The translations under genes and the position numbers were made by a program. A stretch of 64,000 bases of DNA. Origin: Gymnogyps californianus. Taxonomy: Eukaryota; Chordata; Aves; Accipitriformes; Cathartidae. The notes beneath the pieces are model-generated. The model was given only the letters and a program-made list of their open reading frames with translations. It was not told where the DNA came from and searched no databases. The first letter of the stretch is position 1; every line of letters starts with the position of its first letter. The DNA lies in NCBI RefSeq assembly GCF_018139145.2, contig NC_059471.1, positions 210,757,494 through 210,821,493 on the forward strand, in the 5' to 3' direction. This document shows positions 90 through 43,671 of this stretch, piece by piece.

Positions 90-6714
<6,625 letters not shown>

Positions 6715-14500: not shown

Positions 14501-17500
14501 CTCTTCACTAATTTTATTAAGTACTTCTCAAGTGTTAGGTCTTTTAGTTACTTGGAAAAAAACACACCCAAATCAACCCTATTTTGGTCGCCTAGAACCA
14601 GCAGTTTCAGTGACAACCCCAGTCCTACCAGATGCCCACTTCAGGCAACATCTCATTCCCAGATTTTGGTACGTAGTCTTACTCAGAGTAAGGCTAAGTA
14701 TTCCATTCCACTTATTATGTCATCTAACTGACTGGACTGTGCTGGCATGAAACAAACTACTCCAGAAAAACTGTGAATATGGTAAGAAAATGTTTACAGT
14801 AGGAGAAGATATTTCTGGCACAATTAGGACAATTCTCCAAATTCTTAGTATACAAAACAAGGTCTTACGCTGTGATTCACAAAGTGGGACACATTTCCAT
14901 ATCGAGCTGCATCTACTGTAAATTCATCTGAGTCATAGTCCAAATCAAACAAGTATGTATTTCCCTGGTTGTCATAGAGCTGGCCTCGTCTCTCTGCTTC
15001 CTCACTTGTAATCACCTACAAAAAGAGAAAAAAGAAACCTGCATCATATTATTAACTATTACTAAATTAAAACAAAAATCACAATCAAGTTAGAAAAACT
15101 TTACTTAGTAAAAAATACCACATTTTCTTTTTGATGTTGAAATAGCATTCCATCTCTAATGAATAAAGAATACATACGTACAGCTAAACTAATTAGTGAC
15201 TGAGGCTTCTCTGGATCTAATTTGTCTACAGCTGATGCACAGCACTACCTTGTCTCAGGAAAAAAAAAAAAATATCAGCACCTTCTATTAGAGTTTTGAT
15301 GATGACAGATACAATCAACTGTTTCTACACACACAATTTTTTCATTAGACCCAGAAAGTTTTGTTTACTTCCCCTAACATAAAGTTTCAACTTTCTCCCT
15401 TTGCACAGGCGAAGATCAACAGGTATCAGTCTTTACAACCCAGTCACAGTTACAGTCCAGCATTCATCTCCTCCCTCCCTAGAAGCATCTCTTCCTGCTA
15501 TTTTTGACTGCAATGAAAGATCTTATTCATGACAACTTAGACAGATACATCACTTCACAAAGCTGAATCTATGCAATTTAGGCTAGCATGTACTAGCACA
15601 AGGTAGAAATCCAGAAACTCCCCAGAGGAAGAGAAGAACTACAATCACTTTTGACAGAAGCAACAGCTTAAACAACTTCATGTGCAGCCTGTTACGTTAA
15701 ATGTATTCTGTTGTGCAGACTCAGCAAAGAAATCACAAATTGGCAGCAAGACAGATACGAAATGTGGTGGAACTGGACAAAAAAACCCTCTAAAATCTTT
15801 CTGACAGATCAGATTCGAGAACTTATTCAGCAGTAGGGAATAAGTAGATTCAGGTGAAAGGGTAAATACACACTCTTTCCTTTAAGCAACAAAATTACAT
15901 CATCATCATTCTGCATTAACCCCTCAACAGAGATACTTTGAATGACTGACCTCTTGTATGTTTACAAGAAAGGTATGAACATGAGAATTCAGAAGATTTG
16001 GGGCAGGAAACAAGGAAGAAATACAATTAAGACCATAAATATTTGTAGGAAGGGACAGAAGGAATTATTTTGAGTCAACTTAGTAGCAAGGCAGATTTGT
16101 GACAGAAATACGACAGACTGGATCAGAGAGGCTGCCAGGAGCTACTGATGTAAAAAGCGCTGAAGCAGAGCAGCGGTTGAACCAAATAAACACAGGGCAA
16201 TACAAAATCTCAGGAGTAACTCAAGGTCTGTATTTCATAACATGAAAGTTCTGTTTGAAATAGTATGAGATTGAGTAAACAGATAATGTCCATACTGCAA
16301 GTCATCTTCTTGCTGTTAATCAAAAGTAATAAATAAGTTTGGAAATTCTACCTTAAAAGTTCAGACAAAACAGAAAAGGGACTGACAGACTGGGTGGGGA
16401 GTTTGGTAACAACTGTGCCTGGGGAACAGCAAAAAACTACAATAATAAAGATGATCAGGGAAGAACGAAGAATACGACTGCCATGAAAGAAGGACTTCCT
16501 TTTAGAAATACTATCAGGGCCAGTATCTAAAATAATTCTTTAGCAACATATGGGATAAGTATTCTCTTTACATTCAACCTTTTACAATTGCTCTGGAATG
16601 GAGGAACGCTCTGGACAATATAATTTTGCTGTCATCCTGAATGTCTATTTACTGTATTTTTCTACTCAAAAGCAGACTTATCTAATATATAGTAGAAGTC
16701 AAGAAGTGTTAAAACTGAAAGCTCATCAAGATTTTCTCCAACATTGCCTTTATTGTAAATAATTCATCTATATGAGATAAATACATACCTCTCCAACATA
16801 CTCCATCACAAAACTGTTGGTTTTAATTTTCTGGAGGGTTTTTACTCCCCAACCACGGCCATTGTTAGTTCTGAAGATGCAAAGAGAATACGGTGTACCT
16901 TTCTGTACTATCCTATTAGGGCAGTCAGGCCCACACCTACAAAACGAATTGCATTCATAGATGGGCAAGCCGGGCTGGATTTTCAACTTCTTTCGTTTAT
17001 TGTAAGCCAAAATAAATCCAGCCTCCTTTGGACAGCACTTCTCAGCGGGGCAGTCAGCGCATTCACAGCCAGTCGTTATTCCATTTATTACATTTATTCC
17101 CGGAGCAGGTTTATACTCATTAATGTAGTAGAAGTCTAAAGGAGGGCCTTCAAGATCCACAGTGTTTTCTACCAGAATCATTGCCTTATGATTCTTTTTC
17201 CTGTTGAGTTCTTCTTTCCATCTCTGCAGAGCTATTCTTTGCTTAGCCTTCTTTACAATGTAATCTGCAACCGCAGGTTTCAAAGCTTTAACATGGTTTC
17301 TCACTTTCAGTGCTTTGCCTTCTCTCACCCGAGACAAGTATTCATTCTTGTCACTAAGAAAGTTTTGAAGAAGCAATGGGCATTTCAGATTTTTCTGAGG
17401 TTCCCAAGTATTTGAAGATTCTGGCCATCCTTTCCATTTCACAAGATAGTATTCTGTGCCCTTGAAATACAGAAACAGATACAGATTTAGCCACATTTCA

Positions 17501-19818
17501 TTTTGCTGAAATCTAGCATCACAGAGTACACAGAAAAACAAGAGCTCTGGAGTTAAGAAACGGCATACAGGTCTTGATGTCCCCATAACAATTAGAATTG
17601 GGGAGAAAGAGAAAAATCAAGTTTTCTGTTTGCAAATTAACTTACAGCACAACTTTGGATACTCTACATACCATCTCTAGGAGCAAAGAAATATAACAGC
17701 TGGGATGAACTCTGATCGCTAACGGTATACCTGGAGGAGGCTAGTTTGTTAAGGCAATTACTAAGTTATGCTAACTAGTTGTATGACTCGTACGCACAAG
17801 CAGAATGTAGTAATATCAGATACAGAACAAAAAAAGTAATTCTAAACTTAGCAAAAAAATCTCTAAAAAACACTATTTGTCATATCAACCATCCTCCCAA
17901 AAAACTAAGCCATTCAAAACAGGTAATATTGTATCAATAATCAAGAAGCATACATTTTGGTACTTATTTTAAAAAGGCCAAATAACTGTAACAAGGCCAA
18001 ATCCTGAGACTGAATTTCATTGGCACGATCAAGCCATAGGAATCCAGTTGCAGCACATGGCCCTAACTCTTCATCAAACAGACTACAACAGTCAAGAGAG
18101 AAATATAGACTGTTACCTGCAAATAAAGGAGAAGCATCGTAATACATACCAAGCTACAACCTAAACACATCAGCGTTTTGCTTAACTTCTAGATACGCAA
18201 AGGCAAAACATTTCATATTCTAACATCTCTGTAATTTCAGAAAAAGACCTTCCTTCAACATACTGAAACCAGTAGTTATACTGCTTTCTGTTTACAGTTC
18301 AAAGTTTAAAAGATATTTCATTCGACGTCAGCAACAGCTTTGTCCTCACAGCCTGCTACTTTATATTATGAGCAAAACTACCTTTGGCTCGCTTCCAAAT
18401 TTCAGCTGAAAGAGTGATCAAATTGGTCTGTGTTTCTCTTACCTCTTCTACCTTGTAGTCACACAAATATTCCACCTCATAACTCTTTAGATTCCTGTTG
18501 GTGATTCCAATGGATTTACATCTGAGATTTTCCTTCCTACATAATTCTTGGAGGGTCTCAAGTGAAGCTAGACATGGCACATACCAAGCTACAATAAGAA
18601 AATTGGTAAAGAATCCTATTTAATGTCTCGGCTAAATTGAAATCATTACGCCTTATCCCAGAGTCCCCACATTATCATTTGTGATAGCAGTCCACGAGTC
18701 TCTTGTACAACTACAGTGTCTCACAGAGTCAAACTCAACCCTTCTCTAATGGGTAAAGTGAAACACATCAGTGATTCCCTCCCTGCACCTTTATTCTGTA
18801 CAGTACGTACATTTATAAACAACAAAAAACATTTTGGAGGGCAGAGACTTCCACAAGTGAAAGCTGCACTAAGAACCGAATAATTTTCCTACAATTACAG
18901 CATCCCATAACTGAACTACGGCGACAAGGAAACCTCCATTCTTTAGTAAGACCGCCAAATATCTGCAGTTAGTCAAGTGGAATCGAGCACTTGCGATGCA
19001 ACCATGGTGACTGGACGAGGAAAGAAAGATCCACAGCGCTCTTCCAGAAGGATCCCGGGCGCCTTGTCGGCTAGGCGGATTTAAAGGGACGCGACACGCC
19101 GCAGAGCGGCGTGGCAAGAGTGCCAGCTCCCCGCCAGAGCCCGGGAAACACCGCTGCGGTGGGGAAGCGCGGGTGGGATGAAGTTCAGAGCAGGAGCCGC
19201 GCGTTGCGATGCGGCGAGGGCCGTGCCTGCCTCCCTCCCCTCGCCGCCGGCCGGGGCACCGCGGGGCTCTCCCGCCTCAGCACCCGACGGCAGCGCGCCG
19301 GGACCCCCCCCGGCCCCGGCTCCCAGCTCCTGCCGGGAAAGGGCCGCCCCCGGAGGAGTTCACCTTCGGGGCGCACCGCCAGAAGTTCGGGAAGGCGGGG
19401 AAGGGGCGGCGGGCGCCTCTCCCGCGGCCGCCCTGGGCCCCCCCAGCGCCTCTCCCTCCCCCGCCCATATTTACCTCAGGCGCCTCCCCGCCCTCCCCCC
19501 CACAGCCTCTCCCGGGCAGCAGGCAGAACCCCCCGCAAGGAAGCGGCAGGGTCGCCAGCCCGCCGGGCCCCGCTGCGGCCGGGTGGCTGAGAGCGGTGCG
19601 GGGGGGGGGGGTGGCGGCAACGGTCCGAACGGAGTCGGGTGAGAGGGACCGGCAGCGGCTGCCCACCGCCGAGAGCGAAGGGGAGGCCTCCCCGCACCCT
19701 CCCTCTCGGCCCACCCAGCGCAAGGAGAAGGGAGGGAAAGCCCGAGCGAGGCGCTCCGGGCGGCCCCGTCCCCAGCCCGAGCCGCCGCCGCTACCTCACC
19801 TCCTCGCCAGCCCTCCAT
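11530..19818 (-). CDS. SUV39H2: SUV39H2 histone H3 lysine-9 methyltransferase, complete, 407 residues
   Basis: Trimethylates H3K9 at constitutive heterochromatin using S-adenosylmethionine. Six coding exons, read 3' to 5' on the plus strand: 19800-19818, 18443-18588, 16789-17460, 14869-15015, 13148-13277, 11530-11639. The sum is 1224 nt, 407 residues plus stop; human is 410. Residues about 40-100 form the chromodomain ([23 protein letters not shown]). The pre-SET zinc cluster follows ([22 protein letters not shown]), then SET with [21 protein letters not shown] split by an intron, and GEELTFDYQ. The post-SET is [13 protein letters not shown]. All catalytic and zinc-binding residues that I can identify are present. 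The start is the first ATG in the mRNA orientation with a good context (AAGATGG), and only this 19-nt exon joins in phase to exon 2 (RG|AWYVPCL). Lies in tandem behind HSPA14. Confidence 0.97.
12174..12300 (-). mobile_element. CR1 LINE 3' fragment
   Basis: Starts with tcatagaatggtttgggttg, the reverse complement of the CR1 3' end, and runs on with the usual CR1 tail sequence. It lies in SUV39H2 intron 5 in the same orientation as the gene. Too short to code for anything. Confidence 0.9.
12316..12530 (-). mobile_element. Second, more diverged CR1 3' fragment
   Basis: Begins with cgaacagcccaagttggaag and continues with ccagtgatggggactccacc, both CR1 tail sequence on the minus strand. It starts 16 bases after the previous copy ends and is of a different subfamily, so two independent insertions lie back to back in SUV39H2 intron 5. 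Confidence 0.85.
12531..13147. other. Rest of SUV39H2 intron 5 proximal to exon 5
   Basis: Intronic. Has a poly-T tract at about 12813-12832. An apparent minus-strand open frame extending past exon 5 into this stretch is read-through of the GTCTGC donor at 13146-13147, not coding. Confidence 0.6.
15016..16788. other. SUV39H2 intron 3
   Basis: 1.77-kb intron between the large chromo/pre-SET exon and exon 4. AT-rich, without repeats or other features that I recognise. Confidence 0.6.
17461..18442. other. SUV39H2 intron 2
   Basis: Intron of about 1 kb separating the two halves of the chromodomain coding sequence. Nothing else recognisable in it. Confidence 0.6.
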
Positions 19819-21722: not shown

Positions 21723-24700
21723 CTATGATGCCACTTCAACAGTGATGATTTCACACTTTCCAGTATCTTGATCTGTGCAGGTAACATGCAAGGACCCATC
21801 CCTAGATAAAAGAAAAAGGTATGTTTAGGACTATCTCAACACAACACTTGGTATGTTACTGCCTGTTCCAGAGAGGATAAACAATGGTCATGCAGACCAA
21901 AGGAAGAAAGATTAGCATCAAAATATCCAGGGAAGAACATGCTTCAACACAGATGAAATTGATTTATGAAATTAGGTTTAGTTTATTGAGTATTTAGAGG
22001 GCACTTCTTGCCCTCCATTAAAGCACGTATCTTCTCTACATGTGTTGGAACAGATTCAGGAATATGTTTAAATATTGTAACTAAGTTTATTTAGTACAGG
22101 TTTGTAACTAGAATATGTAGTAATATTCAAAATATTCATCTTGAGAACTCTGAGTAACAGCAACCAACAGATAAGCATGTCTTCTCAAAGCATGAGACCT
22201 TGACTTTTTAAAAGTAGTAGTCTTTAAATACCAAGGATCTCCTTCAACGAGGAAAACCTTAATTTTCAAAATCCAAGAATTAGAGACAATATTGACTCCT
22301 ACTTCACCTAGACATACAACAGTCACATGCAATGTTTAGATAGAAATAGGTGTGTTCTAGTGAACTTTCCCCATCTTTTTCACCTAAATATTACTAAAAA
22401 CTCCTTTAAAATAATGCAGCTTTTCTGCGCTACACAGTTGCATATATAATACCTAAGACGTTTTTCTTATCAATGCTAAGTGCAAATCTCTGTATGACTA
22501 ACAAGGTATTTTAGGTGAAGTCTATTAATAGAGCATTAATACACCTGATAGTTAATGTAAGAAAATGAAGTATTTTGAACTCAAGTAGCAAGCAGGCATT
22601 TAGTTTTTCAGCAACATCTAGACAGCTTTCGTATTATTTAGAAAAGCAACATGAACTTCAGGACAGTCCTCAGGAGACAAACATGCTTTGACTACTTAGA
22701 ATTCCACCTTCTGATATCTTTATAAACTATTTAGAGTATTTCAAATGAGCCCAAGGCCTATTAAGGCCTAAAACTGAGAAATTTCTTCAATATCATGTCC
22801 TCCCCAGTCCCCACCCTGCCATAAGATACTTCATATTTTCCCATAATAAACAGGTAATTCTGTAAAAAGTAGATTTATGAAGCCTGATTTCCTGTGGCTT
22901 TATTTCTCATGCTTAACAACCCTGCCTCTTGAAAGGATAGAGCCACAGGCTTTCATCACAAATGCTGCATATGAGAAGACCTTCATGGATTCCTTAGCAA
23001 CCAATAAAGACAGGTTCTACTTCAGTTTTCCCTAAGAGTGTGGGCATTGAACAGAACTACCTGACCCCCTTCCACAGGAAATTTGAGATCCGGACTGCTC
23101 TCAGGCATGGTTAAACTGATCAACGGTTCAGAAGTTGCTAAAAATCATCTATACAACTGTGTTAAGATTTATGTCGTTAGGAATCAAACAATGAAAGCAC
23201 AGAAGGTACTGCATAAAACCCATATTCCTAGAGAATTTACCCCTGCTAGGACACAGCCCTGTAAGCAATGAGATGCTGAAATTTCTCAACACAAAATTAA
23301 ACATTCTGTAACTGGAGAAAAGACTGCTTGTCAGAAGTGTGACATAGCAAGTTAAACAGCAGAACAATAAATGTTTTGGGTACCTTTTCATAGTGAGAAC
23401 AGTTAATATATCATGTAGGCCATCCTCCTTTTTATCTAAATCCTGGAGTACAATCTAATTAAAGAAAAAAAAAAAAGAGAAGTTCAATTATAATCAAGTT
23501 CTCTAAATCCTTGCACAGCAGTTTAATGGAAGTGACACAATAGCTAAGGTGTGCAATTCATTCTGTTCAGCATCTCATACTAATGATTCAACATCAAAGC
23601 ATGCCCTAGTGGACTTCATTCATCTGTAGTGCAAATCTATCCATTTTTAGCTATTTGCACTACTGTTTCAGTGGTTTTGTTTCCGGGTCTATCAGTAAGA
23701 TAGCTGGAATACCTGCAACTCCCACAAACTACAGTAAGAGCTGAGCATATTCCTTTACTTAGGATCAGTTCTGTAATTATGAGGGAACATCCTTTGCCTA
23801 TCCCCTTCAAGATCTTTGGGCAGGACCAAGGTGGAATAACAATTTTCTCAAGTGTTTCATCCATTTCAGCCACATCTGCCCCCTCTGTGATGCTTTAAGT
23901 GCACTGAAGCCAAGGTAAGCACATCATCACTGTTTCAAACAAGCTGTGTTCTCTCAATGGGTTGACTCCCGAGTAATATCTTTGTATCGGGTGAAGATTT
24001 AATCACACCATCTTACCACTGTGAAAAATCAAATCTGGTATTTAATACCAAGATCCTGTCCAATCTAGGAAGATCAAAAAGTAAGCAATAGTACAGACAC
24101 TAGCTACGTCATTACCTCCAGCAGTTTTATTTCTAAAATGTTGGAGATGCACACTACTGGAATGACTGGTTATGATCTCTTATCCCAGGTGAGCTTACTA
24201 CAGTAGCGCCAAACATCAAACCCAGTCAGCCATTTAGAAATTCAAAAGGGAAACTTCGATTTAAACTTTAAAAAAGTGCACAATACTTTGTAACACATTT
24301 ATAGAAGAACGCTTAAAGACCATTTCCAAAGAGATGCACGTCATTCTAATTTTGTAACAAGAAGTTTTGGTAGGGGTGGGATTGGTTTCGGTTTTAATTT
24401 TTTTTCCCCCCCCCAGATTCATTTGATTTCCAAGTGGTTGATATTAAAAATGCCTATGAATGTGTATATACTCACCTGTGCAAATTTACCTTCTTCATTC
24501 ATGGGACTTTTCCCCAATGACTCGTATAGCTCAAGGCATACAGAAGAAGTGTTTCCAGGAGCATGCAGGGTGTGCTGCCTTCGAGCTGGTAATGGTGTCC
24601 CTGATGGAAATAGCACTGTGAATTTGTCAGCCCCTGACTCGTCTACTCCCTTTAAAAAGAAAAAAAAAGTTCATGCCTTTCTCTAAGTACTTTACTGAGC

Positions 24701-27700
24701 TAGAAGCGTTACAAGAGTGCTCCATGAGAAAAGAAATCCAAGATTCATGCTCTCTGCCACATTTACTATCACAGCAAGTAAAAAAAAAAAAAAAATTTGA
24801 CGTTCCTATAAAAAAAAAAATGAAAAAGTCCAGCTATTACAACACAGGAAAGACACAATCTATCTCCCCTTAAAATCAAGCAGTTTTTCCTGTCAATTTT
24901 CTTGTCAATAAACCTGTTACCACTTACTGCTGACCTACAGCCAATCTGTAGAACTAATAATAAAACAACACTGTTTCTCAATCATCAGTCATTCATAAGT
25001 AGCACTGTATATTCATTGCAGCAGTAAAATTTTCTAAGTTTCTAAGCCTTACCTTAAGAAGAATATCTTTGGCGGAACACTCAATAAGTGCTGCTTCTTC
25101 TAACAAAGGATTCTCTTTCCCTAGCAGAATTCCTGCCTCTATGGCTGCACCAATGGGAATAACTTCATCTGGAGGAATTGAATTCAGTAATTCCACAGTT
25201 GGGAAAATGTCTTTGATCAGCTGCTGTAGCTTTGGGATTCGAGCAGACCCACCACACAGAACTACCTGGAAAACATGCCTTAATGATTTCAAATCTTTCT
25301 TCTGACAGATAAAACAGACAGATCACAACCTGCAACACAGAAATGCAAACTGCTCTGGGATATTTTATCATCTGTAGTTGTTAAAAGAAAAACTGATGCC
25401 ATCTTTGCTTGACTTCTGTTACTTTTGTATTTGAAATTAAAGGAAATAGCCTGCAAGTTTGGAACGGTGTCTTGAAAAAGTGTTTCTTATAGTAAGCGTC
25501 AGCTAGATGAAGTAACATTTTAAAAATTGAGGAATTAATCATAAAATAATGCCAGGCTGAAAGGGACCTCCACAAGTCATCTAGTCCAACCTCCTGCCAA
25601 GAACAGGTCCAGTCACAACAGGCTGCTCAGGACCTTATCTCCATGGATATAAATTCCACAGACTGAGGGCCCTTGTTTCAGTGTTTGATTACCCTCACAC
25701 TACAAATTCTTTTCTTGGTATCTAAAATTTCCCCATGTTGTAACTTGTGCTGCTTGCCACTCACCCTTCCATCATACACCTACTGGAAGGAGTAAGTCAG
25801 GTTTTGTCTCGATTAGGTAACTGTAGGCAGCACTAGTCTCCCCTGAGCCTCTTCTTACAGGTGAGCAAACCCAGCTCTCTTGGCCCAAACCATCTCGGTA
25901 GCCCTCCAACCAGACTGGCACCAGTAGGTCAGTACCTTTCGTCTCCTGTGAAGCCCAAAAATGATGAGACTGTATTTGGACACTCTGTCCAAGTGCCAAA
26001 GAGGGAAACAAACGCTTTCCTACACCCACGGCTACACCCTTGCTATTACAGCCCAGCATGCAAGTGGCCTTCTTTGCTGCAGAGGCACACTGCTGACTGC
26101 TATCACACTTACTGCCTATTAGAACCCCCACATCTTTTCCTGCAAAGCTGCTTTCTAGCAACCACGAGCCTGTCCTGCTGCACAGGATTACTCCATCCCA
26201 GACTCTGCACTTGCCTTTGTTTATCTTCGTTATATTCTTCTCCATTGGAGTAGATGATCATTGTAGGTCCCTTCCAACTGAAATATTCTATTCTATTATA
26301 TACATCTCTCTTGCCTTTTTCAACCCCTCTGAATAGCAGCCTTGACCTACAGTGGTAGTGATTGCTCCCCTCATTTTGGTACTGTCTGCAAACCTGCTGA
26401 GAGCACATGCTACCCCATCATCCGTGTTATTAGAGACATTAAATGGTATTAGCCCCACTATCTGGAAAGTTATTAGCCCCACCAGATCTGGAGAGAAAGC
26501 TAATTCCCACTTTTCTTCATGTAAAATATAACTTAAGACTTGTAAATTAAGTTTATTTTTATATTTAAGGTGCCCCACCCCCCACCCCTCCAAAAAAAGC
26601 ATTAAGGCCTGAGAGAACATCACATTGAGCCACCTAAAAAATACTGCCACCAGAAAACAAAAGACATTCTCTGAACAATGGCCTGGGATACTTCATTATC
26701 CTACCAGTGAAACTCAGATGTGACAAACACTAATTAAGAGTCTGAAATAGCATCAAGTATCATTAAAAGCGCCAGTTAACTTTTGCTGCAGAATTTATGT
26801 GCCAATTCCACCAGCAATAAATGCAGCACTTTTTGCCACACACAGGTGCACACGCATTGAGATGAAGTTACTCTCTTAAACCAAAGCAAAAAAAGACATT
26901 TGAATGAAACTAGTAATGTTTGCTACTTTACTCACCATCTTTGGTATTAAAGCACTCTATGGTTTGGCATCTAATGTGTTCCTAAGCTTTTTAAGCTAAC
27001 AAGGAGGAGCATAGGCACCAAGTAGACACTAAGCGATTTGTTCAACTCGTAAGACAAAAGTCTAAGCTCGGGCTTTCTTCAGAAGTGTCAGCAAATCCCA
27101 TCCAAAGCTCAGTGAAGGTAGAAGAAAGTCTATATACTAAATTTAAAAGAAGGTACTCCTCAGCTCTACCAAGAGCTACGCAAACACACCAAATGGAGAC
27201 AAATCCTCTACCATTTACTCAATATGCAACAGTAAAAACACATGGTTGACTCTGACTCTACCTTATACTTAACTTCAAGTAACCGAAATCAAAGATAGGA
27301 GTTCTAAAGATCTTGAGTCTACATACTTTGTTGGATCTGAGCCAAAAATGCTTAAACACATAATGAAATAATCTCAGTCTGCAAGGAAAACAGGCCTCAA
27401 ATATTCTTCTTGTGGAGTTATAAAGCATACTACAGACAAGTAATTTCTATTATTACCTTATTTATATCATCTGCTGTAAATCCAACTTGCTGCAAGAGCT
27501 TTTTAATTGCTTCTACACATTTACTAAAAAGTGAAGAACAGATAAGTTCAAACCTGGCCCTAGAAGAAAAAAAAAAAATTCAAGAAGTGTCATCTCATAC
27601 ATTAGAGACAAATAACTGAAATGGAAGAAAAATCATTTTTAGAATATACTTTGGTTCTCTAGCTATACCTGGTACTAAGGGATTTTTTTAAAAAATCTTA

Positions 27701-30700
27701 TTTCCCAATTATTAATCTTGAAGAAGCGATTTTTTCTGCTGCTGTTGTGAAAATATCTGTGCTATTGATTCCATCATTAATACCTACATGGAATGCACAT
27801 TCATTCTTCTTCAGTGTACTCTAGAGAAAAACCAGTATTGTTGTCTTGACTCACACAAGAAAAAAAGAAGCAAAAATCCTGGAACTGCTTCATCATCTTT
27901 AAAATGGAGACACAAAGACACAAATGTGCCTCTTGAATTTTCAGAGGCAAATCAAGCTGTGTCCTGATTTGCAACACAGGGAGTAGGTTAAGCAAACTGA
28001 AAAACAAACTTGTGCTTGCTTTGGGCTCTTTCAAGCCTGAAGAGGAAGTTTTACTCTGTATGAATACAGCAAGTCAAATCCTGCAACACGAGTCCACAGG
28101 ACTAGCATCATTACCCAAAACTGAACCAAAACAAGTTATACAGTATTGCTTCTCACACTTGCAAACATACCGTGCCTTATTTTACCAGATCCAACTGCTG
28201 CAGCAGTGGATGCACAGTTCTGGAATTGAAAAGTCTATTTCATTTTGCTAAAGCTGCTGCTGACTGGAAGAGCAATCAAAATTACCTAAACACCTCAATA
28301 AGGGATCATCCCAAGAGAGAAAAGACTTAGAGTAGGACACAGCAGCATGAACAAAAAAGACAGAAAACATCTTTCTACTCCAGCTGTCAAAAAGAGGCAA
28401 CATCAAGACTTCCATGACTCCTATTGTTCTGGAGCTCATTTAGATGAAAGAGTCCAAAAGTCATCTTTTCTTTAAGGAAAATCCAACAACAAAAACAATA
28501 ATGCGGTGGGGGGAACCACCTTAAGTAATTACAGTATCTATTCCCCTTTCATCAACAACCAGACTCCAAAGATGGGGTCTCTTTGTGCCTTTTTGCACTT
28601 TATTTTCTAACCATTACGGCAACATTGTTAGTGTTACTACCCCAACTACTACAGATCGCATCATAACAGAAAGATCAATATGAAACAAAGCTGAAAGCAA
28701 GCAAGTTGGTCTTCTATCTTACTTCCATTTCTAAAATTAATGCCACCAAAAATCAAAGCTTATTGAACATTCTAAATGCCACCTAGAAAGACTTCAAGCA
28801 TAGTTTTATATAAAAGCAGTAGCTTCAAGATTTGCTTTACCTGGACACATTACAATCAAAATCCAATCCTTCATACAATGAATCTACAAAACAGTTTGCA
28901 CTTCCGAGGGTTGACAAAGAGTGCTTTGCAATATCAGCGCTGTTCATTAACTTCATCATGGCTCTGGGATTTCCTCTAATATCATGTTTACAAGACCTAC
29001 ATTTAAAAAAAAAAAAAAAAAAAAAGAGGTACCAGTTTAGAAAGGCAGGCATTAAAGTGATAACACTAACCTTCCGAAAGGAAGAACAGGTTAAAGCTAT
29101 TGAACTTTTTCTTCTGTAGACATTTTAGTATTATCTACAATGCCACTACTGAAAGCTCGCAAAGAATGAAAGTGTCTACTTCCAATTTCAACTAAAGAAC
29201 ACTGTGTAGAGGCACCCTGATCTCGGGCATTAGTGTTTATCATTCAGATTTAAGTCTTTCTGAACAGTTTCTCAGCTGAACAAATCCTGTAAGTGACAGC
29301 AAGAAAAGGCCTGCAAGTTAACTAATTTTAATGACAGATTAAGAACTAGAACACCAAACATTAGACACGTCAACAAAATAGTATATTTCATCCAAAAAGT
29401 CTCCTTCTGTGATAGTACACAACTGACCACCTCAAGACAACTAGAGCTAACGGTAATGCCATTTGTTCCATTTTTGTTCAGCATAGGATGACCTGCCATA
29501 CAGACTTCAGTCTGATGACCCAAGCCCCTCCACGGTCCTTCAAGCCAACAAGAAAAACAAACAAAACCCACACAGGTGAATTCCCTGCCACCCCAAAAGC
29601 TTGTGGCTGAAAGAACGTAAGCAGCCTGTAGTCACGTACATCACTCAAAACACAGAACAGTTCATAGCTGAGCCCTTATAGCTCAACACCGAACTTCAGG
29701 CGACATCTACCCAAAAGCAAGTATTTCCCAGCCTTCCTCCTCGGCCCCCAACAGCTGACTGTTCCTTTAATAACTTTACTTAAGCCATTTCACATGCAGA
29801 CAGTCTGCTAGATCTGACAAACTAGTATGAGGTTTTTTTTTGAAAGCAAGCACCAGATAACGAAGTTCCTGTCCTAACAGCAACATGCTTGGAATTCAAA
29901 ACCTACCTCTGAAATTCAGACGCCAAGTGCTGTGCTAGAGCTTCTGTGAAGCAAACTCCACCAATGCTATCATCTGTGTTTGTAGCAAGCACACGATATA
30001 TTCCACTGTTTACTTCTATGACTGTGATAGAAAGCGATGTTCCACCAAGTTTATAAACCAACACATTGCTGCCATGGTAAAAAAAAAAAAGAAAGTAGTA
30101 TTAATACAAGTCATCTAAAATTATGTTTACTTCGACACACTTTCTAAAAAGATGACCACCATACAACATGTTGCAGGTTTTCATCAGTTTTGTCAAGAGA
30201 ATTTGATTTGGGGTGTTTGTATTTAATGCATCTTAGTACCACCGACTGCTTGACAATGTTCCCTAAAGGACAAAATTAGTCTATTTCATACAGTGAGAGT
30301 AGCCAACACTTTTCCTATGACACAATTGAGAAGTGAACATTACATTCAAGATTATAGGCCAGAATTATGAGAAGAGTAAATAAATACCAACCAAGAAGAA
30401 AAAAAAGACAAGACATCTGTTTGCAGTGACAGCAGTCTGCTATTTTGAAAATCTTGCAAATTATCTGAATATTCTTAAGGGAAATCCAATGCACCTACTG
30501 AACCCAGGAACTCGGCTTTAGTTGTTCTACCATATGTAAAATGACCCCATCTCCCGCAATTAAAAAACAGCTATGCCAAAATCTGTTTAAGAAGGGATGC
30601 ATTTTTCTTAAAGCCAGTCAGCTCATTAAAGAGCAAGACAGAATCTGGGGACAAATCTTTAAAAACAATTCTAAAAAAATAAAAACCAGAACAAAGGGAT

Positions 30701-33700
30701 TTAAAACACTACGGATTTACAACTTCTAAATTGTTATTGGCTTTATTGAGAGAAAAAAGAAAAACAAGCCTCAAATCATTAATTCTGTATTGACTGCTAA
30801 GGCTACACAGCATTCCCTGATTCAAGATTTCTCAGGATTTAAGTACAGCAGCTTACATTTAAGAAGTAAAATATTAGGATTTTACCTTTTCCCAGTGGGT
30901 GAATCTTGGCCAATTCCATAAGCCAGGAGAGCGGCAGACGGTTCATGAATTAATCTCATAACATTAAATCCAGCAGCTGCAGCTGCTTCCCTGTGATAAG
31001 GCATAACAGCATTTCATTTTACTTTAATGATTTCACTATAGTCACGCACGCTATTAAGATTGCATCTGAACTACATACACCACCAACTCAGAACTTGGTT
31101 ACAGCATGGTATAAACAAAGCGAAGTGACTGGAAAAGAAAGGTATCAAGAAGTTCAGTTGCTATTGTGTTCTTCAGGTAGTTGGATCTGCTGTGTGCTCA
31201 TTGTCAAAGAAAACACTGATGTATCAGTCTACAGACCTCATAAAAACCAGCAAAACCCCCCTCAACTACAAGATGAAAAACCCCACCCTCAAACTTGGTA
31301 ACTTATCTTCAAGTGTGGCATTAAAAGTTTTTGGTACGTTATTTCAACAGATATCATGCTAGGAAAATTTATTTTACTTCCAAATCAAGCTACCGCACCT
31401 CACTTCTAACATTTTCTTTACATGTTTTCTTGAAAGTTCAGTAACCCTGGGACTGCCCTGCAAGTTGTTTCTTCCACTTTGAAGTTATTTTGAAACTCAT
31501 ATACCAAAGCAATAGAATGTTTCATTATACATACTGCAAATACCCAGCTCACTAATGTTTTATGACCAACTTTAAGTGTGCTTTAAGTATTTCATGACAG
31601 TTAAACATTACGGCTTCTACATATCAGAAAGTAGAAATAGATGCTGCCAATTATGCACAGCTTTAAGTCTACTTAAGTTTTCCTATGAAGGAACTTTTAC
31701 GGCAGAATTTTTTTCAAACAGAACTTCCAAGTTCAATACTGGTGTGTATTCCGTATCTGCTCTCCGACAAAACAGTCCTCAATAAAGTCATGTAACACCA
31801 CTTGGTTTGGTGCGCACTGCTGTATGAAGGGATGGGAAATTATGGAGGAGGGTTGAGAAACTATTTGCATTTCAAAGGGGACACTGAAGATCCACATCTG
31901 AAATGACATTCTATCCTTGATGATACCAAAATTCCCTCTCATTTTAACTGATTCAGAATTTCATTTTGGCTACAACAGTGAATTCCATTAAAAGTTTCTA
32001 AAGTCAGGATTTAATCTCCTGCTTTCGTATTTTCCCAATTCAGATAACATCCCAATGTCTTGACTGATAGTCGCAAGCTGAAGTCCAGCAGGAGAATTCC
32101 CATTGCTGATCTGCCAGCCGGTCTGCTTTAGGCATGTTAAATAACAGAAAAATCTTAATCCTCTTACCCAAGGGCATTTTTCTGATTCTCTCCAAAATCA
32201 AATGGTACAGTGATAACAACGTCATTTACATCTGAACCCAATGCAGACTGAGCAGTTTCTGTTTATAAACATAGGCAGAACATGTTGATTAAAAGCAAAA
32301 AAACCAATACACCACATCTTAAAAATATGAGGACAGCTTAAAAAACTAAAACATGTTATGATTTTCCTTATTATATACCTTTCATTTTACTGAAAATTAG
32401 TTTTGCCACATCTTCTGGGTTAATAAGTTTATTATCTATTTCATATTGAAGTTTTCCATTCTTCTCAGTTATCTGTAAGCAAAACCAACATATCTTTGTT
32501 AGATACGCAATTTGATTATTAACAAAAAGTAATGTTTCATTTAGTTTCTGTTCAAAGTAAAAAGCACTGGACTGTGTAAATACTTTCTGTGTTAGTACTC
32601 TACTACAAGAGAACAAATGCTTCCAAGATGCTTATCGAAGACCACAAAAAACTTGTATTATCCAACAGACATGACAGTGACATTCACATGGACTTAAAGA
32701 CTACAGACTTTCTTTTTCTATGAAGAAGTTTTCGTTAGTACAAAAGCAACATTTAGAACAAAAGTTCTTGCCTGTTTATATTCCGTAAGAAAAAATGACA
32801 ACTATTTATATAGGCATGTCAATATGAACAGTCAAAAACCAGAGAAACACTCGTTCCTTCTTCAGGAATGTATCTTCCAGGATAATTTTTCTCTTATTTT
32901 GCAAAAAGATTTCTAGTAACAAGCACAGTATTATCCAAATTAAATACTGAGATTAAATCAAGTGGTTAAGCGTTTTTATCACAAGATGTTGTAATGAGCA
33001 TCTTCTACTGGAGCTAAGAAACGCCACAACGCTATTACCCAAATATATTAAGAATCATCCCTTTTGAGAATGGCCAAGAGATATATATAATTTTTCTGTT
33101 GGACTATATTATGATGGCAGATCTCAGAACACGGTTAAGTTCTCTCCTTTATAAAAACAGAAACATTCTATATGGCAGCAAATGGACCTTATATAATGAG
33201 AGCTGATCACTACAGAACACAAACATGCTGTGGCACAAACAATGCCAAGAAGAAAAGTATAAAATGATACAAGTTATTCTGGGAACAAAAAAAAAAAAAA
33301 ACCCAGATCATACTCACTGAACATTTGCTTTCTGCAATATATTTCTCTGCCTGTGGGTCACCAGAGCTGTCCAGACAAATTCAAAGTAACAAAATAAATC
33401 ACATGCTCAAGGGTAATTGCACAAATTCATCTTGCTGATATTCCTTATAACATCTACAGCATATGAAGCTATACTTCACCCAAAATTCCTGTTTCCACTG
33501 TACAGGAGAAGAAAAACCAACAGTTCTGACTGCTGGTACCTTTCAATCTCCCTTCCCCAAACCAATGATTGAAAAAATACCTACTAGTTAGTGAAAAGGG
33601 AAAACAAACACCAACACATTGTTTTAACCTGCTACCTCCAATGATCATTATAAAAGACTTCAGTGGCACTTTTGCTGCAATGATTGAAATAACATGACAG

Positions 33701-34891
33701 CAATAAGCTGACTATCCTTAACCCTCTACTAACTATGTAAAGTTATGCCTCTGAAAAGTGCTGAGAAATACATCAGAATAGACATCATCTTGTCAACTCC
33801 TTTCAATGAAAGAGCTGTAACACACAGCTAGGTCATCACTGAAAAGTTTTGTCGCATCTCTGATGTTTGACCTAAACCAACAAGTTTAGTTCTAGTATCG
33901 CTGTAACTGCCAGTGCAAATCATCACAGCTCCACTAACTGAAGAATCATAACAGGCATTACATCAATGTGTTTCACAATCATAATAAAAGCAATACAAAG
34001 TTTCATGCAAATAAAACCACAGTGGATTTTAGCCACAGGAAAGTTAAGAAACTTAAGTATGTATCAAAAGCACATATGCAACTTGTTACTAAATGTCACA
34101 ATTTGATTTTTGCAGACAAATTCAGACATAAAATACTACGCATCTCTTTACCCCTGGAATGAAATGTCGAACAAGAAGTTCATAACGTAATTTTAAGATA
34201 TGACATACCCTCCTGTCAATGCCAGGTTAACTTAAGTACTATCACACTAGATTAAAATGCCTTCAGTATCAGTGCTGAGACTACATTTCACTGACCAGCT
34301 TTAACGAGGAAAACTTCTCACCTTCCCTTTCACACCTGTTCTCTTACCTTCGCCCAAGGATCTGCTTTACTTTCACTACAGTGTTTGAAATATTTCTTAT
34401 TCTACTTTGCTTTGCAGCTAAGCCAACAACCTGAATGAAAAATAAATAAAAAAAAAAAAAACAAAACAAGAAGTGAGCAGCAGGCAGAGCTCCTCTCCTC
34501 TCCAAACCACCACCACAGAAGCAAAGCCTCACCTCCTCGCTTTCCGAGAACGCAACCACCGCAGGAGTGACCCTGTCCCCGGCGTCGTTGGCGACCACGT
34601 CGGCGCGGCCATCCTGCGGACAGAGGCACCACCGGTGAGCCGCCCCTCAGGGCACCCCGCGCCCCGTCAGGGCTTTACTCGCTGCATGACCCGGCAGCGC
34701 CGTGAGGGAACAGAGATGACCGCGGCCCGGCCCGGCCCGGCCCGGCCCGGCCCGGCCCACCCCCTCCTCCTAGCAAGGACCCCCGAGCGACCACGACGGC
34801 ACACGGCGCAGGGAGCGGCCCCTCAGCCCCTCACCTTATAGACGGCAGCGCAGGAACAGGTAGCACCCAGGTGAACACCGATGGCCGCCAT
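21723..34891 (-). CDS. HSPA14: HSPA14 (Hsp70-like protein 1), complete, 505 residues
   Basis: Divergent cytosolic Hsp70 that pairs with DNAJC2 in the mammalian ribosome-associated complex and helps nascent chains fold. Fourteen coding exons on the minus strand: 34835-34891, 34533-34613, 34348-34430, 33318-33366, 32379-32472, 32168-32258, 30886-30990, 29907-30068, 28841-28996, 27457-27559, 25053-25265, 24476-24649, 23384-23454, 21723-21801. They add up to 1518 nt in one open frame, all junctions GT/AG. The ATPase domain shows [56 protein letters not shown] and Hsp70 signature 3 as [17 protein letters not shown]. The C-terminal part is short, as is normal for this family, and ends in ITVEVAS. 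It is four residues shorter than human HSPA14, in the segment before [10 protein letters not shown]. The start is the first AUG of the CpG-island exon, in MAAIG context. Confidence 0.97.
21802..23383. other. HSPA14 last intron
   Basis: AT-rich intron. No repeat family or small RNA that I can identify. Confidence 0.55.
25541..26235 (-). mobile_element. CR1 LINE, 3' part of an old copy
   Basis: Antisense CR1 sequence on the plus strand: tgaaagggacctccacaagt near 25558, then the region matching the CR1 3' coding part (tggccttctttgctgcagag near 26066). It lies in the HSPA14 intron between exons 10 and 11, in gene orientation. It continues after an inserted fragment at 26300. Confidence 0.8.
26238..26297 (+). 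mobile_element. Short CR1 3' end of opposite orientation inside the older CR1
   Basis: gtagatgatcattgtaggtc followed by cccttccaactgaaatattc and a short TATTC repeat is the sense CR1 3' terminus. It interrupts the minus-strand copy, so it inserted later. Confidence 0.75.
26298..26480 (-). mobile_element. Continuation of the old minus-strand CR1
   Basis: Matches the next upstream CR1 section in antisense (tactgtctgcaaacctgctg near 26381). Homology fades at about 26480, where the intron resumes. Confidence 0.65.
26481..27456. other. Rest of HSPA14 intron 10
   Basis: A C-rich patch at 26571-26590, otherwise AT-rich unique sequence. Nothing recognised. Confidence 0.5.
27560..28840. other. HSPA14 intron 9
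   Basis: About 1.3 kb, AT-rich, no repeat family recognised. Confidence 0.5.
30991..32167. other. HSPA14 intron 6
   Basis: About 1.2 kb between the exons ending NALG and beginning EAAAAAGF. Unique-looking AT-rich sequence, no feature identified. Confidence 0.5.
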
Positions 34892-35240
34892 GAACCCCCC
34901 CCTCCCCGCTCCACGCGCGCCCGCTGCCCCACAATGCACCGCGCCCCCCCCGGCTCCCAACCAATCCCGCTCCCCTCTTCTCCCTGGCCGCCAATCAAAG
35001 CCCGCGCCGCGCTCTCTCACAAACCAATCGCGGAGAGGCGCACTTGGAAGTGCCGTCATCGGCGGAGCAGCCAATGAGAAAAATCGAGAGAGAGACGTCA
35101 TCACGCATGGCAACGGGGCAGAGGCCGTGCGGGTTTGGCGCGTTTGGCGCGGAGCGGCCGCTGAGGGGAGTTCGTCAGGCGGCGGCCGGGGCCTGCTCGG
35201 GCTGGAGCGCGTTTAACCCCAGCAGACCCAGCCAGTGAGA
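34480..35240. promoter_or_regulatory. HSPA14: HSPA14 CpG-island promoter, ancestrally shared head-to-head with CDNF
   Basis: Dense CpG block covering HSPA14 exons 1-2 and 350 bases upstream. Upstream of the ATG there are four CCAAT boxes on the plus strand (34961-34965, 34991-34995, 35024-35028, 35071-35075), an ACGTCA half-CRE at 35095-35100 and two adjacent TTTGGCGC E2F-like sites at 35134-35141 and 35143-35150. No TATA box. In human, CDNF starts divergently from this spot; here I find no CDNF exon 1 on the plus side. Confidence 0.8.
34724..34758. repeat. GGCCC pentanucleotide repeat, seven perfect units, in HSPA14 intron 1
   Basis: Seven exact copies of GGCCC on the plus strand (GGGCC on the HSPA14 transcript strand), within the 221-bp first intron (34614-34834) and inside the promoter CpG island. 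Pure G/C short tandem repeats like this tend to vary in length and can form quadruplex-like RNA. Confidence 0.9.
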
Positions 35241-35894
35241 AAATAGGGATTAAAATGGGGAAAGGCGGTCGAAGCTCTTTCGTGCGTGGGCTGGGGCGCG
35301 TGTGTTTTATGACAGTGGCATCTCTCGTGGTTTAATTGCAGGCAATGAAGCACATGGAGTCGGTGTAAATATTTTTTTATCCAAGTGCTGTAGTTATTAG
35401 CGAAGCAGTCAAGCTGAAGCGCTGATTTTGCATAATCTAACCAGGCGTGACCAATGTCTGAAGGCAAAGCTCAGGGTCTTATTATGTTGCACTTCTGTTG
35501 GAGAAATCCATCTTGGCATTACCACAGGAAAAAAAAAAAAGAAATTATTTCTAATCAATCCTGGGGGAATTTAACATCATTCACACACAACTCAGTTCTT
35601 CCTGGCTAGAGCCATCGCCGTGCTGAGGGCTCTTCCGATTTCATATGGCCCCATCACGGGCACAGCAAAGTTCTCTATGTACCTTAATGGGGAGCAGGTC
35701 ACCTCATATATGCGGCTTTGGGTCCTCTCACTGTAAAGATGACAGCGCTTCTGTAGGTTTGGGTGCTCATTTCCCTCTCATTTCCATAGGGAGTCTAAGT
35801 GCCCCACAGTACCATCTCACTGCATCATTCAGAAGCAACGATTTTCCTTACCCTTGCTTTATATATGATATGCTGAAGGGTTAAAGGAATGAAT

Positions 35895-35975
35895 CGAGAT
35901 CACATAGAGGTTAAAGGAGCTATCCGGAGTCGCAAAGGGATTTTGTGTCCGAAAACTGATCCTGGGCTTCCTAAG
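35895..35975 (-). mobile_element. Possible MIR-type SINE remnant
   Basis: The order gatcacatagaggttaaag, then a diverged middle, then actgatcctgggcttcctaa follows the antisense MIR core, but similarity is weak. Confidence 0.35.
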
Positions 35976-38900: not shown

Positions 38901-39784
38901 GCTAATTAGACACAGCAAACATACTTCATAGCTAGAACAGAGAACTAGCGCAAGTCACCTTTCACAAGGCTTTGTTGGCTATTATGAAAATTGAATATGT
39001 ATTATTTTCTTTAGAGTAAGGATAAGCATGTGCCACAGATAATTGCACATACAGTCTATGTTAATAAAACAAGGAATATGTAATATTCTCATTGCTGTTT
39101 TGAGAATTGCTGTAGACTGTATCAGGCACGATCATCTCTAGGCACATCTATGATGGTCATGGTTGTCTGAACAACTTTATTACTCTTGTCAAGTCTGAGA
39201 ACTTTTAAACATACATACAAATGACTTTTTTTTTCCAAGGAAAATAACAGAAAAATCTTCAAATAACTTCTTTTTAAATTTTTGGCCTTTTTCCTCTCCA
39301 TGTTCCAGTTTTTCCATCTCCTAAATGATGTCAAATTCACTTTACAGGAATGTTGAAAGGTTTTAATAATAGATAGGAAGTGTACTGAGATCCTTGGCTG
39401 GAGGATGCTCTGTAAATATAAAATGTTGTGGTTAATAATGCAGATCTAAGTTATGACATGAATTACAAAGAGTGCCATGAGGCAATTCCAGAGCTTTCCA
39501 AGCAAGCTTCATGGTAAAATATGCCTGAAATTCACTTTTGTGCTCTGGGTGGAAAACCTTGTGTTCATTGAGCACTGGCATGAAGTTTATGCTCTGCAGG
39601 GCAAGTTCAATACAAAACTGAGCGGTGTTTAAACCAGCAGTTTAAGAAGAGCCGACTACCAAAATAGGTCATGATCAGCATCAGGTTAGTTAGTGACAGA
39701 TGTCTTAATTTTAGGCAAAGAACTGATTTAGGCGTGAGGGTGCCAGCTTGAAACAAGAAGTTCTTTCTGTGCACTGTCAGAGAT

Positions 39785-39915
39785 TTACTATATGACCTTG
39801 AGGAAGTCATTTAATTTTACTGTTTCTTGAGTTCTTAATCTGAAAAAAAACCTAACCAAGAGTAGCATTTTCCCTTCCTCCCAAGGGTGTTGTGAGGATA
39901 ACCACTTTAATTAGT
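39785..39915 (+). mobile_element. MIR-type SINE remnant
   Basis: Reads tatgaccttgaggaagtcat, then a T-rich segment and gggtgttgtgaggataacca, the sense order of the MIR core and 3' part. Old and diverged. Confidence 0.65.
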
Positions 39916-40361
39916 TTCCTGCTTAGAGGTGAGTGTAATAGGATGGAGTAGCTAGAACATAGCTCTTCCTTATCTCTGCTGACCAGTCCTGGTCAGTATC
40001 ATGTCAACTAAATTGATTTTTGCAGAAGGTGATTAAACACAATTAAATGTCCATGTTAAAACCAACGCTAGGATTAGTTTTATTGAACTGAGATCAAAGT
40101 GGTGATAGATTCTGAGCTCCTTTTATTAAAAAAGTGTTAATGGGATACATGCAGAGCTGACAGAACGATTTCCTTTCCCACAAACCCACCATTATCTATA
40201 AAGCTAAAAGATGAAATTAGAGTTCTTTTTTTAAACTACAGAGCAGTCATATTTTTTTTTAAATGTTAATGATCCCTGTCTTTAGCTAACTTGTTAACAT
40301 TCCTTTGGCAGCTTTACCAGTTTCTGCTGTTCAGCTTAAGGTTTTTATTTTCTTGTTGCAG

Positions 40362-40479
40362 TATGTAAAGAATTTTTGGACAGATTTTACAATTCACTTA
40401 AAAGAAATTCAGATTTTGCTGTGGACACCATAGCTGGTCAGCAGCTGTGGGGATGCAAAAGGAAAAGAGCAGCATCTGG
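40362..40479 (+). pseudogene. CDNF: CDNF pseudogene exon 2
   Basis: Preceded by a T-rich tract and ttcttgttgcag. The first 24 codons follow CDNF closely, including the phase-1 split Val codon before Cys. After VDTI, 19 nt replace the usual 27 nt; homology resumes one frame over as DAKGKEQHL (40452-40478). No GT donor follows, and the first frame runs to a TGA at 40505-40507. Confidence 0.88.
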
Positions 40480-42292
40480 AACCATTCTCCTTTGTTTTAA
40501 GTTCTGAGGAAGTCTGAGTTAAATGACAGAATTTGTGTTCGATAAAAATCTCTGTCCATCTGCACTCACGGGGATTAATTCAAATCCAGTAATGACAATA
40601 ATAATGATAATTACGAGTAACAGAGGACAGTCCTGTGGCCTGTGTGAAGCGAATTTGGCGGGTCTGTGTTTAATTTTCGGCGTATATGGCTGCATGTTGT
40701 TGGACAGCCATTGAAATCAGTGGGACTCTTTCCAGCAGCTTCCCTGGTCATTGGCTGGGGCCCTAAACGGCCTATTACAACAGGGGAAAATTAACATAGT
40801 TGTTGGCAGCTCATCAGCTGATGACTGAATAGATACACTGAAATCCCCTTCCACCTTTCCAGACTGAAACCGGGAAAGGCCAGGGGTGCAGAGGAGGGAG
40901 GCTGCGCTGCTGATGGACAGCCGCACTGTTCTCCCTTAGTGACAGCTTCGGGGCTTCGGAGGTATTTCAGGCACCCAATATTTTTTACTGTGTGATGTTC
41001 TGGTTTTAATGACCTGGGTCCAGATAGCTGCCTCTAAAAGAATAGCTGTCGCTTTTGTGGAATGCTACATGTGTTTATGGACACTGAAAGACTTCTCGTT
41101 CAGGGCAGACTTGGGGTCCAAGCAGTTGGGACGCATTGTATTGACTGATCCTACCACAGGAGCTTTGTGCAGTCAGGCCATTTGTATTGTAAAATCTCAC
41201 CACGCTCTGATGTTAATCGGTCGTGCTGCAGGGACTCCTCATGTCTTTGGAAGCGGGAGGGGAATCCCTGAGGTCTTCACAGAAGAGCTGCTGCAGAAGA
41301 CACACTGCTTTCTGGTAGCTCACAAAGGACAATCTCACTCCACCGAGTAGCAGTTTTAGGTCAACTTCAGCAGACACATTTGCAGCACTGATCGCTTTTG
41401 TGGGCCTATCCTTTGAAGAAGGGCATACGCTGGATTTTCAGCTCTGGATTTTCCCAGGTTATTATTTGGGGATTTTCCTGGCCTGTTCTCATGCCCAGAA
41501 GACATTCCTCTGAGTGCTGTTCAACCACAGAACAAAAAGACAAGATCTGCTCGAAGAACTTACAGTCATAATAAAAGTGAAAAGTGAAGAAATGAGCCAA
41601 ACCAACAGGAATTCCCTGGGGTGCAGAGAAACAGTGAATCAGTCTGGCCAGAAGATATGCAGAGGTTTCAGCGGATCAGCCTCCTCCCCCTGTGCTGAAG
41701 AGTGCTTATCTACCATGGGTCCTGGTGGGACAGATGAGATGGGTAGAGGTGGAAGACTCTCATCCTTGATTTAGAACCACAGGCGGTCTGTTTGCCTTCT
41801 CTACGCTGTAAAAGCTGGTAGGAAAACCCCATTGCTTTCGATGGGATGCATTCTGCCATGAAGAGGAGTGTTTCACTGGTGTATCACCTTACTCATTAAT
41901 TCATTTAATTGTACATTCATTATGTTTACTCATGTGACAGGCCAACACAATCCAAGGCTTACCTTCAGGATTTATTATAAGCACAAAATTAAACAAAATG
42001 TTGCCAAATAGTAATAACATCATTCAATATCACCTTGAAAATCCATTATTTGCACATTAGCAACATCCTTTACGAGCAGGTCTGGCACTGCTGTGCCCTC
42101 CGCTTTGCCATGTGTTTTACCCCATGGAAGAGGGAGTCCCATGATCTTAGCAAGTGGCTTGCGGCAGTCAACATCCCTGACTTTTGGGTGCCTTCTACTC
42201 CCACGGGCTTCTAGGAGTGTGAAAGCATTCCCCACTTTGCAGCATCCCCTCTCTTTTGTCTTGGCATTAACTCCCTGTCCGGTGTTTTTCAG

Positions 42293-42434
42293 TTCTGTTA
42301 CTGTGGAGCCACCAGTAACACACCCACAAAAATCATTGCTGAAGTCAGTTGCACGGTGGGTGCCCACATGCCCCTGCCAAAGATCTGTGAAAAGTTTAAG
42401 GTGGCAGATAATCATCTTGGTGAGCTCAGATAAG
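42293..42434 (+). pseudogene. CDNF: CDNF pseudogene exon 3
   Basis: Acceptor ggtgtttttcag and donor AAG|GTAGG are still present. The frame is open until the last codons, where the Tyr of the CELKY motif is TAA. The C in that motif and one tyrosine of CYY are also gone, so disulphide pairing of the saposin-like domain would be broken even without the stop. Confidence 0.9.
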
Positions 42435-43490
42435 GTAGGCTGAGGTTTTAAAGCAAATTGCTGGGCTTTGAGGTCTCATTATCTAGTCACATTCATTTAT
42501 CCCTCTGGGTCCCTGCCCACAGACTCTTTCCATTCTTTAGCCTTTCTAAACCTAAGCAGAAAGGGAAATAAATAGTTCTGTACTCCCTCCCTCCCTCTTC
42601 TCATCTACTTACAGCTTAGGCCAGGAAAAGTAAAGAGTTTGGGGCTTATGCTTTCCTCCTAGCCAGAGCAGTCTTTGTTGGAAGCCTGTCCAGATGACTC
42701 ACTCATGCGGATGGGCACTTTCCCAGCTCTGCAGTGAAGGAGGAGCAGGGCTGACTCCTTCAGAGAGAGGTTGCTTGTTCAAGTTGAGCAGCTGTTAACA
42801 AAGACTGCAGAGTTTTAAATAACCCGAATAAATGAAATCTCTTCTCCCTCTTCAGTTAATCAGGCCTTGCTTTCTTTGTACGTCAAAAACCTGCTTGCTT
42901 TCCTCTTACCCAGACAGTTTTTCACAGCAGATAAAAACTGAATGTAGGACATAAACAGCCAGTCCCATGGACTGAATGAAGCCTCATTTCCAGTGGTTTC
43001 ATGTCTTGTGGATCTGCTGCTTTTGTCCTAGTAAAGCACAAGGGTTGGCATAAGCTTTTCTCATGGCTGGGTATTCTCGTGATTCATTCTCCTGTGTGAC
43101 TTCTCTGGTGTCTAGTAAGATTTATTCTACAGCCCTTCTCTTGGGGAGGGGAAGGCTGTGGAGATCCCAAACTATGGGGAAAGAAGTGAGACAGAGGAGC
43201 TGGTGGCATCGCCTCTAGAGATGTCATGGACTGGCAAAGCCCTGGTCCTTGGCTTTAAATACGTGGAGCTGCAGACAGATCACTGGAGGGCATGGGACTG
43301 CAAGCCCATGTCATTTGGGGTGCAGCAGCTGCTCTCCCTGACTCCACCACCCCCTGTGTTACAGTAATTGCTCCGCAGCATTTGCTTGAACTGGGTGATT
43401 TTTTTCCTCTGCGGCAGCACAGAGGAGTTAAGGACAACGTGAAAACTTACGTGCGCTCTAAAGCATCTCTCACATTCTTTCCTCTTGCAG

Positions 43491-43671
43491 AAAGGAAACT
43501 GGACTTAAAATACACGGAGGTCTCCAGGAGGATGAGAGAGGCTGAGCGCTGGAAGTACTGACAGGCTGGGGAGAAGTGAGCAAGGTCTGTATGGAGAAAG
43601 CAGAGCTCGTGAGCCTGAGTAAGGAGCTGGTCCTGAAGTGTACGTGCGGAAACCCCAGATCAGACCTTTAG
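43491..43671 (+). pseudogene. CDNF: CDNF pseudogene exon 4 (SAP-like C-terminal domain)
   Basis: Acceptor ttcctcttgcag. The first frame covers 43496-43558 and ends at TGA 43559-43561; homology goes on in the frame starting 43558 to TAG at 43669-43671. The first cysteine of the CxxC redox-like motif (CRAC in human) is replaced. Exon length and the ER-retention-like last four residues (RSDL) remain at the expected distance. Confidence 0.88.

Follow-up and report, generated by a model that had tools for sequence, protein, structure and literature searches.

A decayed CDNF gene beside HSPA14 in Gymnogyps californianus and its bearing on a possible loss of CDNF in birds

Unitary pseudogenes and gene losses in birds are already known kinds of event. 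The nearest described case is STK33, a unitary pseudogene of neognath birds, which is likewise a conserved vertebrate gene with decayed exons at its own locus and the loss of which is dated to approximately 100 million years ago (PMC4509753). STK33 differs in that it encodes a kinase, is reported to be intact in palaeognaths and was compared in 28 neognaths (PMC4509753), whereas CDNF is a neurotrophic ER protein and the DNA of one bird was read in the present work. The 'missing genes' of birds described by Lovell et al. (2014; PMC4290089) are for the greater part retained by crocodiles but absent from birds, as CDNF appears to be, although those losses are mostly of syntenic clusters while CDNF is a single dead gene with readable exons and a legible neighbour. 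None of the names CDNF, ARMETL1, HSPA14 and MANF is found in the main text of that study, the supplementary lists of which may differ. CDNF itself has been investigated for the treatment of Parkinson's disease and is reported to be safe and well tolerated (PMC10405524). It is reportedly abundant in skeletal and heart muscle, and Cdnf-/- mice are described as having a reduced number of enteric neurons and defective gut transit (PMC8821067).

In this study, we analysed a stretch of 64,000 nucleotides of Gymnogyps californianus DNA (hereafter the window), in which an earlier note had proposed that CDNF survives only as a unitary pseudogene. The locus is identified as such because of its position beside HSPA14, its intron phases, the identity of its residues and the presence of lesions across three exons. 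We estimate with a probability of roughly 0.93 that it is the orthologous CDNF locus, and that it has been dead for about as long as Galloanserae and Neoaves have been separate, perhaps from as early as the ancestor shared by all living birds. Alligator and turtle CDNFs (P0115 and P0064-P0067) belong to the same family and have open frames, in contrast to the three broken exons of the window.

HSPA14, the left neighbour of the locus, served as a positive control and was recovered as 12 tblastn pieces in order on the minus strand (21726..34891); nine pieces are 74-85% identical to the human protein, while the other three (48-55%) extend into introns. HSPA14 on the minus strand and the CDNF remnant on the plus strand (from 40362) adjoin one another in divergent orientation, and the place beside HSPA14 is, by synteny with human 10p13, presumably that of CDNF. 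The syntenic position proposed earlier is thus borne out on the HSPA14 side. The region between 34900 and 35300, upstream of HSPA14, appeared by eye to be CpG-rich with several CCAAT boxes, and is the expected site of a promoter shared by HSPA14 and CDNF. Further to the left, an exon on the minus strand (16768..17586) displays Chromo and Pre-SET domains above the cut-off and a SET domain below it (13.2 versus 22.4 bits), and from this domain order and the synteny with human 10p13 we take it to be SUV39H2. The exon at 5745..6714 on the plus strand is taken to be the last exon of DCLRE1C (Artemis). Its reading frame is open to approximately 6265 and continues in another frame from approximately 6268 to a stop at 6712-6714, i.e. 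one net single-base change near 6266-6270 in an otherwise open frame, which reflects either a mistake in the assembly or a genuine lesion. At the other end of the window, a frame of 166 amino acids (61818-62318, plus strand) is open and has no Pfam match; it is perhaps, we assume, the first exon of a long form of FAM107B. Repeats of at least 30 nt are scarce in the vicinity of the remnants, with a similarity of 71-77%.

Three exon remnants were delineated on the plus strand. The exon 2 remnant (40362..40478, 117 nt) starts in phase 1 directly after a retained acceptor CAG (junction CAG then TA TGT) and reads CKEFLDRFYNSLK-RNSDFAVDTI up to a frame change near 40433, followed by LVSSCGDAKGKEQHL; its donor has changed from GT to GA. 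The exon 3 remnant (42293..42434, 142 nt) retains both acceptor and donor, with CAG preceding a codon boundary at its start and TAA G preceding GTAGGC at its end, and its length is exactly that of MANF exon 3. The exon 4 remnant (43491..43671, 181 nt) begins in phase 1 after a retained acceptor (GCAG then AA AGG) and reads ERKLDL... until a frame change near 43547-43551, after which EVLTGWGEVSKVCMEKAELVSLSKELVLKCTCGNPRSDL and a stop codon TAG follow; the tail RSDL is still readable ahead of this TAG, which ends at 43671. The order, strand and intron phases (1, 0, 1) of the three remnants are those of this genome's own MANF, a paralogue serving as the reference in place of a crocodilian or turtle CDNF gene. 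This junction comparison, together with the tblastn matches described below, confirms the earlier claim that three remnants correspond to CDNF in order, strand, phase and acceptors. A motif for the end of exon 1 (TGYGARG then G or T) had no match on the plus strand within 34401-40362; exon 1 of CDNF is lost or beyond recognition.

Alligator CDNF (P0115) aligned with the window by tblastn at 40358-40459 (63% identity, 42.7 bits), 42299-42430 (54.5% identity, 52.4 bits, E 5.6e-11) and 43552-43668 (51% identity, 42.7 bits), all on the plus strand, while the start of exon 4 (43490-43546) reached on its own only E 2.9. The end of exon 2 is matched by turtle CDNF in the other frame (40434-40478). 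When mature alligator CDNF was used as query against 200 dinucleotide shuffles of the window, none of the 200 reached 42.7 bits, the best score being 26.6 bits against the real scores of 42.7, 52.4 and 42.7. Additionally, Pfam gave 37 bits for ARMET_N in the exon 3 piece (cut-off 26.9) and 24.5 bits for ARMET_C in the exon 4 piece (cut-off 23.5); no Pfam family was reached by the 23-aa piece of exon 2.

Each remnant carries its own damage, and the lesions in exons 2, 3 and 4 are independent of one another. Exon 2 is 117 nt long against 128 nt in the bird's own MANF (hand count), and has a 3-nt gap as well as a net 8-nt gap that accompanies the frame change near 40433; its donor reads CTG|GA, as opposed to CTG|GT in MANF. 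Exon 3 is interrupted by an in-frame TAA at 42431-42433, where relatives have Tyr, and Cys is replaced at two aligned conserved sites (C43F and C85G). Exon 4 is 181 nt long against the 179 nt expected from alligator CDNF (hand count; net +2 nt), and in addition to its frame change the CxxC motif has become SxxC (C119S). The out-of-frame deletion and missing donor, the in-frame stop with lost cysteines and the frame change with a lost CxxC cysteine that the earlier note had assigned to exons 2, 3 and 4, respectively, were therefore all found. A functional CDNF has an open reading frame with a signal peptide and eight cysteines; here, two frame changes and one in-frame stop are present, three cysteines out of the seven that the remnant covers are changed, and exon 1 was not found. 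These features show that the gene, as assembled, is incapable of making CDNF protein.

A hand alignment spanning 150 columns has 73 at which 19 sauropsid CDNFs are all identical; the remnant covers 70 of these invariant columns and keeps 47 (46 of 70 on a MAFFT alignment). By comparison, each of the 19 intact CDNFs retains 73 of the 73-76 columns that are invariant in the other 18. This loss of constraint bears on the proposal that the gene is alive and its apparent lesions stem from errors of assembly or sequencing. Such errors may occur in this region, given the single-base frame change in the putative DCLRE1C exon of the same window; however, errors do not mimic the replacement of 23 of 70 otherwise invariant residues, nor do they sit well with a missing exon 1 end motif, a lost donor and an 8-nt gap, while the adjoining HSPA14 is legible in the same assembly (9/12 pieces at 74-85% identity to human). 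An error-ridden living gene is consequently extremely improbable, and the earlier statement that the lesions could not all be assembly errors is supported by the replaced residues, the donor loss and the 8-nt gap. A locus that is still of use, through a truncated exon 3 peptide, a non-coding transcript or regulatory DNA, might be envisaged in view of the two splice sites of exon 3, the 46-codon open frame that precedes its TAA and the retained acceptor of exon 4. Against this, changes affect three of the seven cysteines within the remnant as well as 23 of its 70 invariant sites, and no Rfam match was obtained within the window at gathering thresholds; we regard continued use as very unlikely.

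Given that CDNF and MANF are paralogues, the remnants might instead be what is left of a MANF duplicate or retrocopy, and they do have exon phases in common with MANF. A retrocopy is contradicted by the introns, which the remnants still possess. Over 141 aligned residues, the remnant is identical to alligator CDNF at 83 and to turtle CDNF P0066 at 84, as opposed to 61 for the bird's own MANF, and of the 21 sites diagnostic for sauropsid CDNF versus MANF, 11 agree with CDNF in the remnant, two with MANF and eight with neither. The remnant is thus closer to CDNF than to MANF. In both trees the remnant sits on a long branch and has turtle and alligator CDNFs as its nearest rows; only the hand-alignment tree groups it, weakly, with alligator (70/32), and in the tree from the first alignment the bird's own MANF formed a supported clade with four bird MANFs. 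Placement of the remnant with MANF gave an AU p value of 0.028 on the MAFFT alignment, in which the exon 4 pieces are out of register, and of 0.197 on the hand alignment, the latter value leaving room for a MANF origin. The evidence from the tree alone is therefore mixed with respect to placement with CDNF or MANF. Residue identity, diagnostic sites and the location beside HSPA14, presumably CDNF's place by the human 10p13 order, all speak against a MANF duplicate, an origin to which we give hardly any credence.

A search of the 1.24 Gb assembly (542 contigs) with alligator CDNF produced seven matches with E values of at most 10: three lie in the window, three in the MANF gene of contig 13 and one, which is noise, on contig 5 (E 6.9). 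An ARMET_C family search of the assembly yielded a single match, which is MANF. No credible second copy of CDNF is therefore found in the assembly as it stands, although one might lie in an assembly gap. The MANF gene on contig 13 has legible exons with intron phases 1, 0 and 1, and adjoins an open reading frame that we take to be RBM15B. An intact CDNF elsewhere in the genome had been named as the observation that would refute a unitary pseudogene, and what the search of this assembly returned was MANF, the remnants and one noise match. With no functional copy in the assembly and open-frame orthologues in alligator and turtles, the reading of CDNF as a unitary pseudogene is supported. As a separate observation, four cytochrome b matches in the assembly all contain stops, and two of these copies, on opposite strands of C307 (527405-527962 and 605860-606405) and approximately 78 kb apart, are considered nuclear because of their TAA stops.

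The age of the loss was estimated from the decay of the remnant. In a neutral simulation at the 70 invariant sites (kappa 2 to 6), retention of 47 corresponds to approximately 0.19 substitutions per site, with values of approximately 0.13 to 0.29 being compatible, on the assumption that the ancestral CDNF had the invariant residues and that all later change was neutral. At 0.19 neutral changes per site, somewhat more than the single in-frame stop seen in approximately 142 codons would be expected, as simulation at 0.2 substitutions per site produced 1.2-1.8 stops per 70 codons. Nam et al. report a divergence at fourfold sites of 0.172 for chicken and 0.199 for zebra finch since the split of these two birds, set at 90 million years, and annual rates per site of 1.91 and 2.21e-9 (PMC2911116). 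The decay of the remnant is close to this divergence. At these chicken and finch rates the loss would be approximately 86-100 million years old (range approximately 60 to 150), and the slower rate given for ancestral birds (1.23e-9) implies an older loss (PMC2911116). CDNF thus most likely died near the base of the neognaths or earlier, and the level of decay would be in keeping with a loss around the origin of neognaths or of living birds, comparable to that of STK33.

Protein searches address how widely CDNF has been lost. With human CDNF as query, no match named as a bird's was present among the best 120 of 321. With alligator CDNF, the best 120 of 145 matching proteins contained birds in six clusters, all named MANF and comprising 237 member sequences by the tool's counts, while the CDNF proteins among the matches listed came from alligator, turtles, lepidosaurs, mammals, amphibians and fish. 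No bird CDNF was named among these best 120 of 145 matches, in which one name stands for each 90% cluster, so that any bird sequence grouped into the alligator cluster of eight members would stay hidden. If full-length, a bird CDNF ought to outscore bird MANF and would therefore be expected among the matches listed. A short-piece search with 89 residues of alligator CDNF recovered two proteins from three candidates, namely a sea turtle protein and a contig protein with 25 residues equal to alligator, and missed known CDNF or MANF proteins of fitting length such as P0091, P0112 and P0143, so that its outcome weighs little. Together with the age estimate, the protein searches, which offer good though indirect evidence, suggest that the loss may be wider than this bird, the relatives with open CDNF frames being alligator and turtles (P0115, P0064-P0067).

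A loss that is recent or confined to the lineage of this bird, with other birds keeping an unannotated or unlisted CDNF, would accord with the insensitivity of the short-piece search and with the false gene losses that are reported to arise in assemblies through GC content (PMC9516821). Nevertheless, bird MANF is listed where bird CDNF is not (best 120 of 321 and 120 of 145), and approximately 0.19 neutral changes per site are too many for a recent event at 1.9-2.2e-9 per site per year, and we consider such a limited loss rather unlikely. Among the titles and opening parts of abstracts listed for CDNF, none reports its loss in birds, and supplementary gene lists may hold such a report. The term 'CDNF' was not found in PMC6321700 and PMC12954441, nor were 'chicken', 'avian' and 'birds' in PMC4731063 and PMC10405524.

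The early loss that we favour would be a single event common to most or all birds, in which the gene drifted to death either as MANF covered its essential role or as the need for it was relaxed. As a paralogue that shares both domains and also acts in the ER, MANF may have made the loss tolerable. In mice, MANF is reported to rise in Cdnf-/- muscle and a double knockout to worsen the stress response there (PMC8821067), while little redundancy is described outside muscle (PMC8821067, PMC10405524). It is moderately probable that all living birds lack CDNF following a single death of the gene, either in the avian stem lineage or at the root of crown birds, which would make them natural knockouts in which MANF alone protects dopaminergic, enteric and muscle cells from ER stress. 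This bird-wide loss is inferred from the missing bird proteins and from a clock with a wide error, in conjunction with the DNA of one bird. The role of the body's own CDNF is less clear than its therapeutic use. If the loss is indeed shared, birds, a large group with heavy demands on muscle, would constitute a natural test of which CDNF roles are dispensable and whether they pass to MANF, and caution would be warranted over chick models for the function of CDNF itself.
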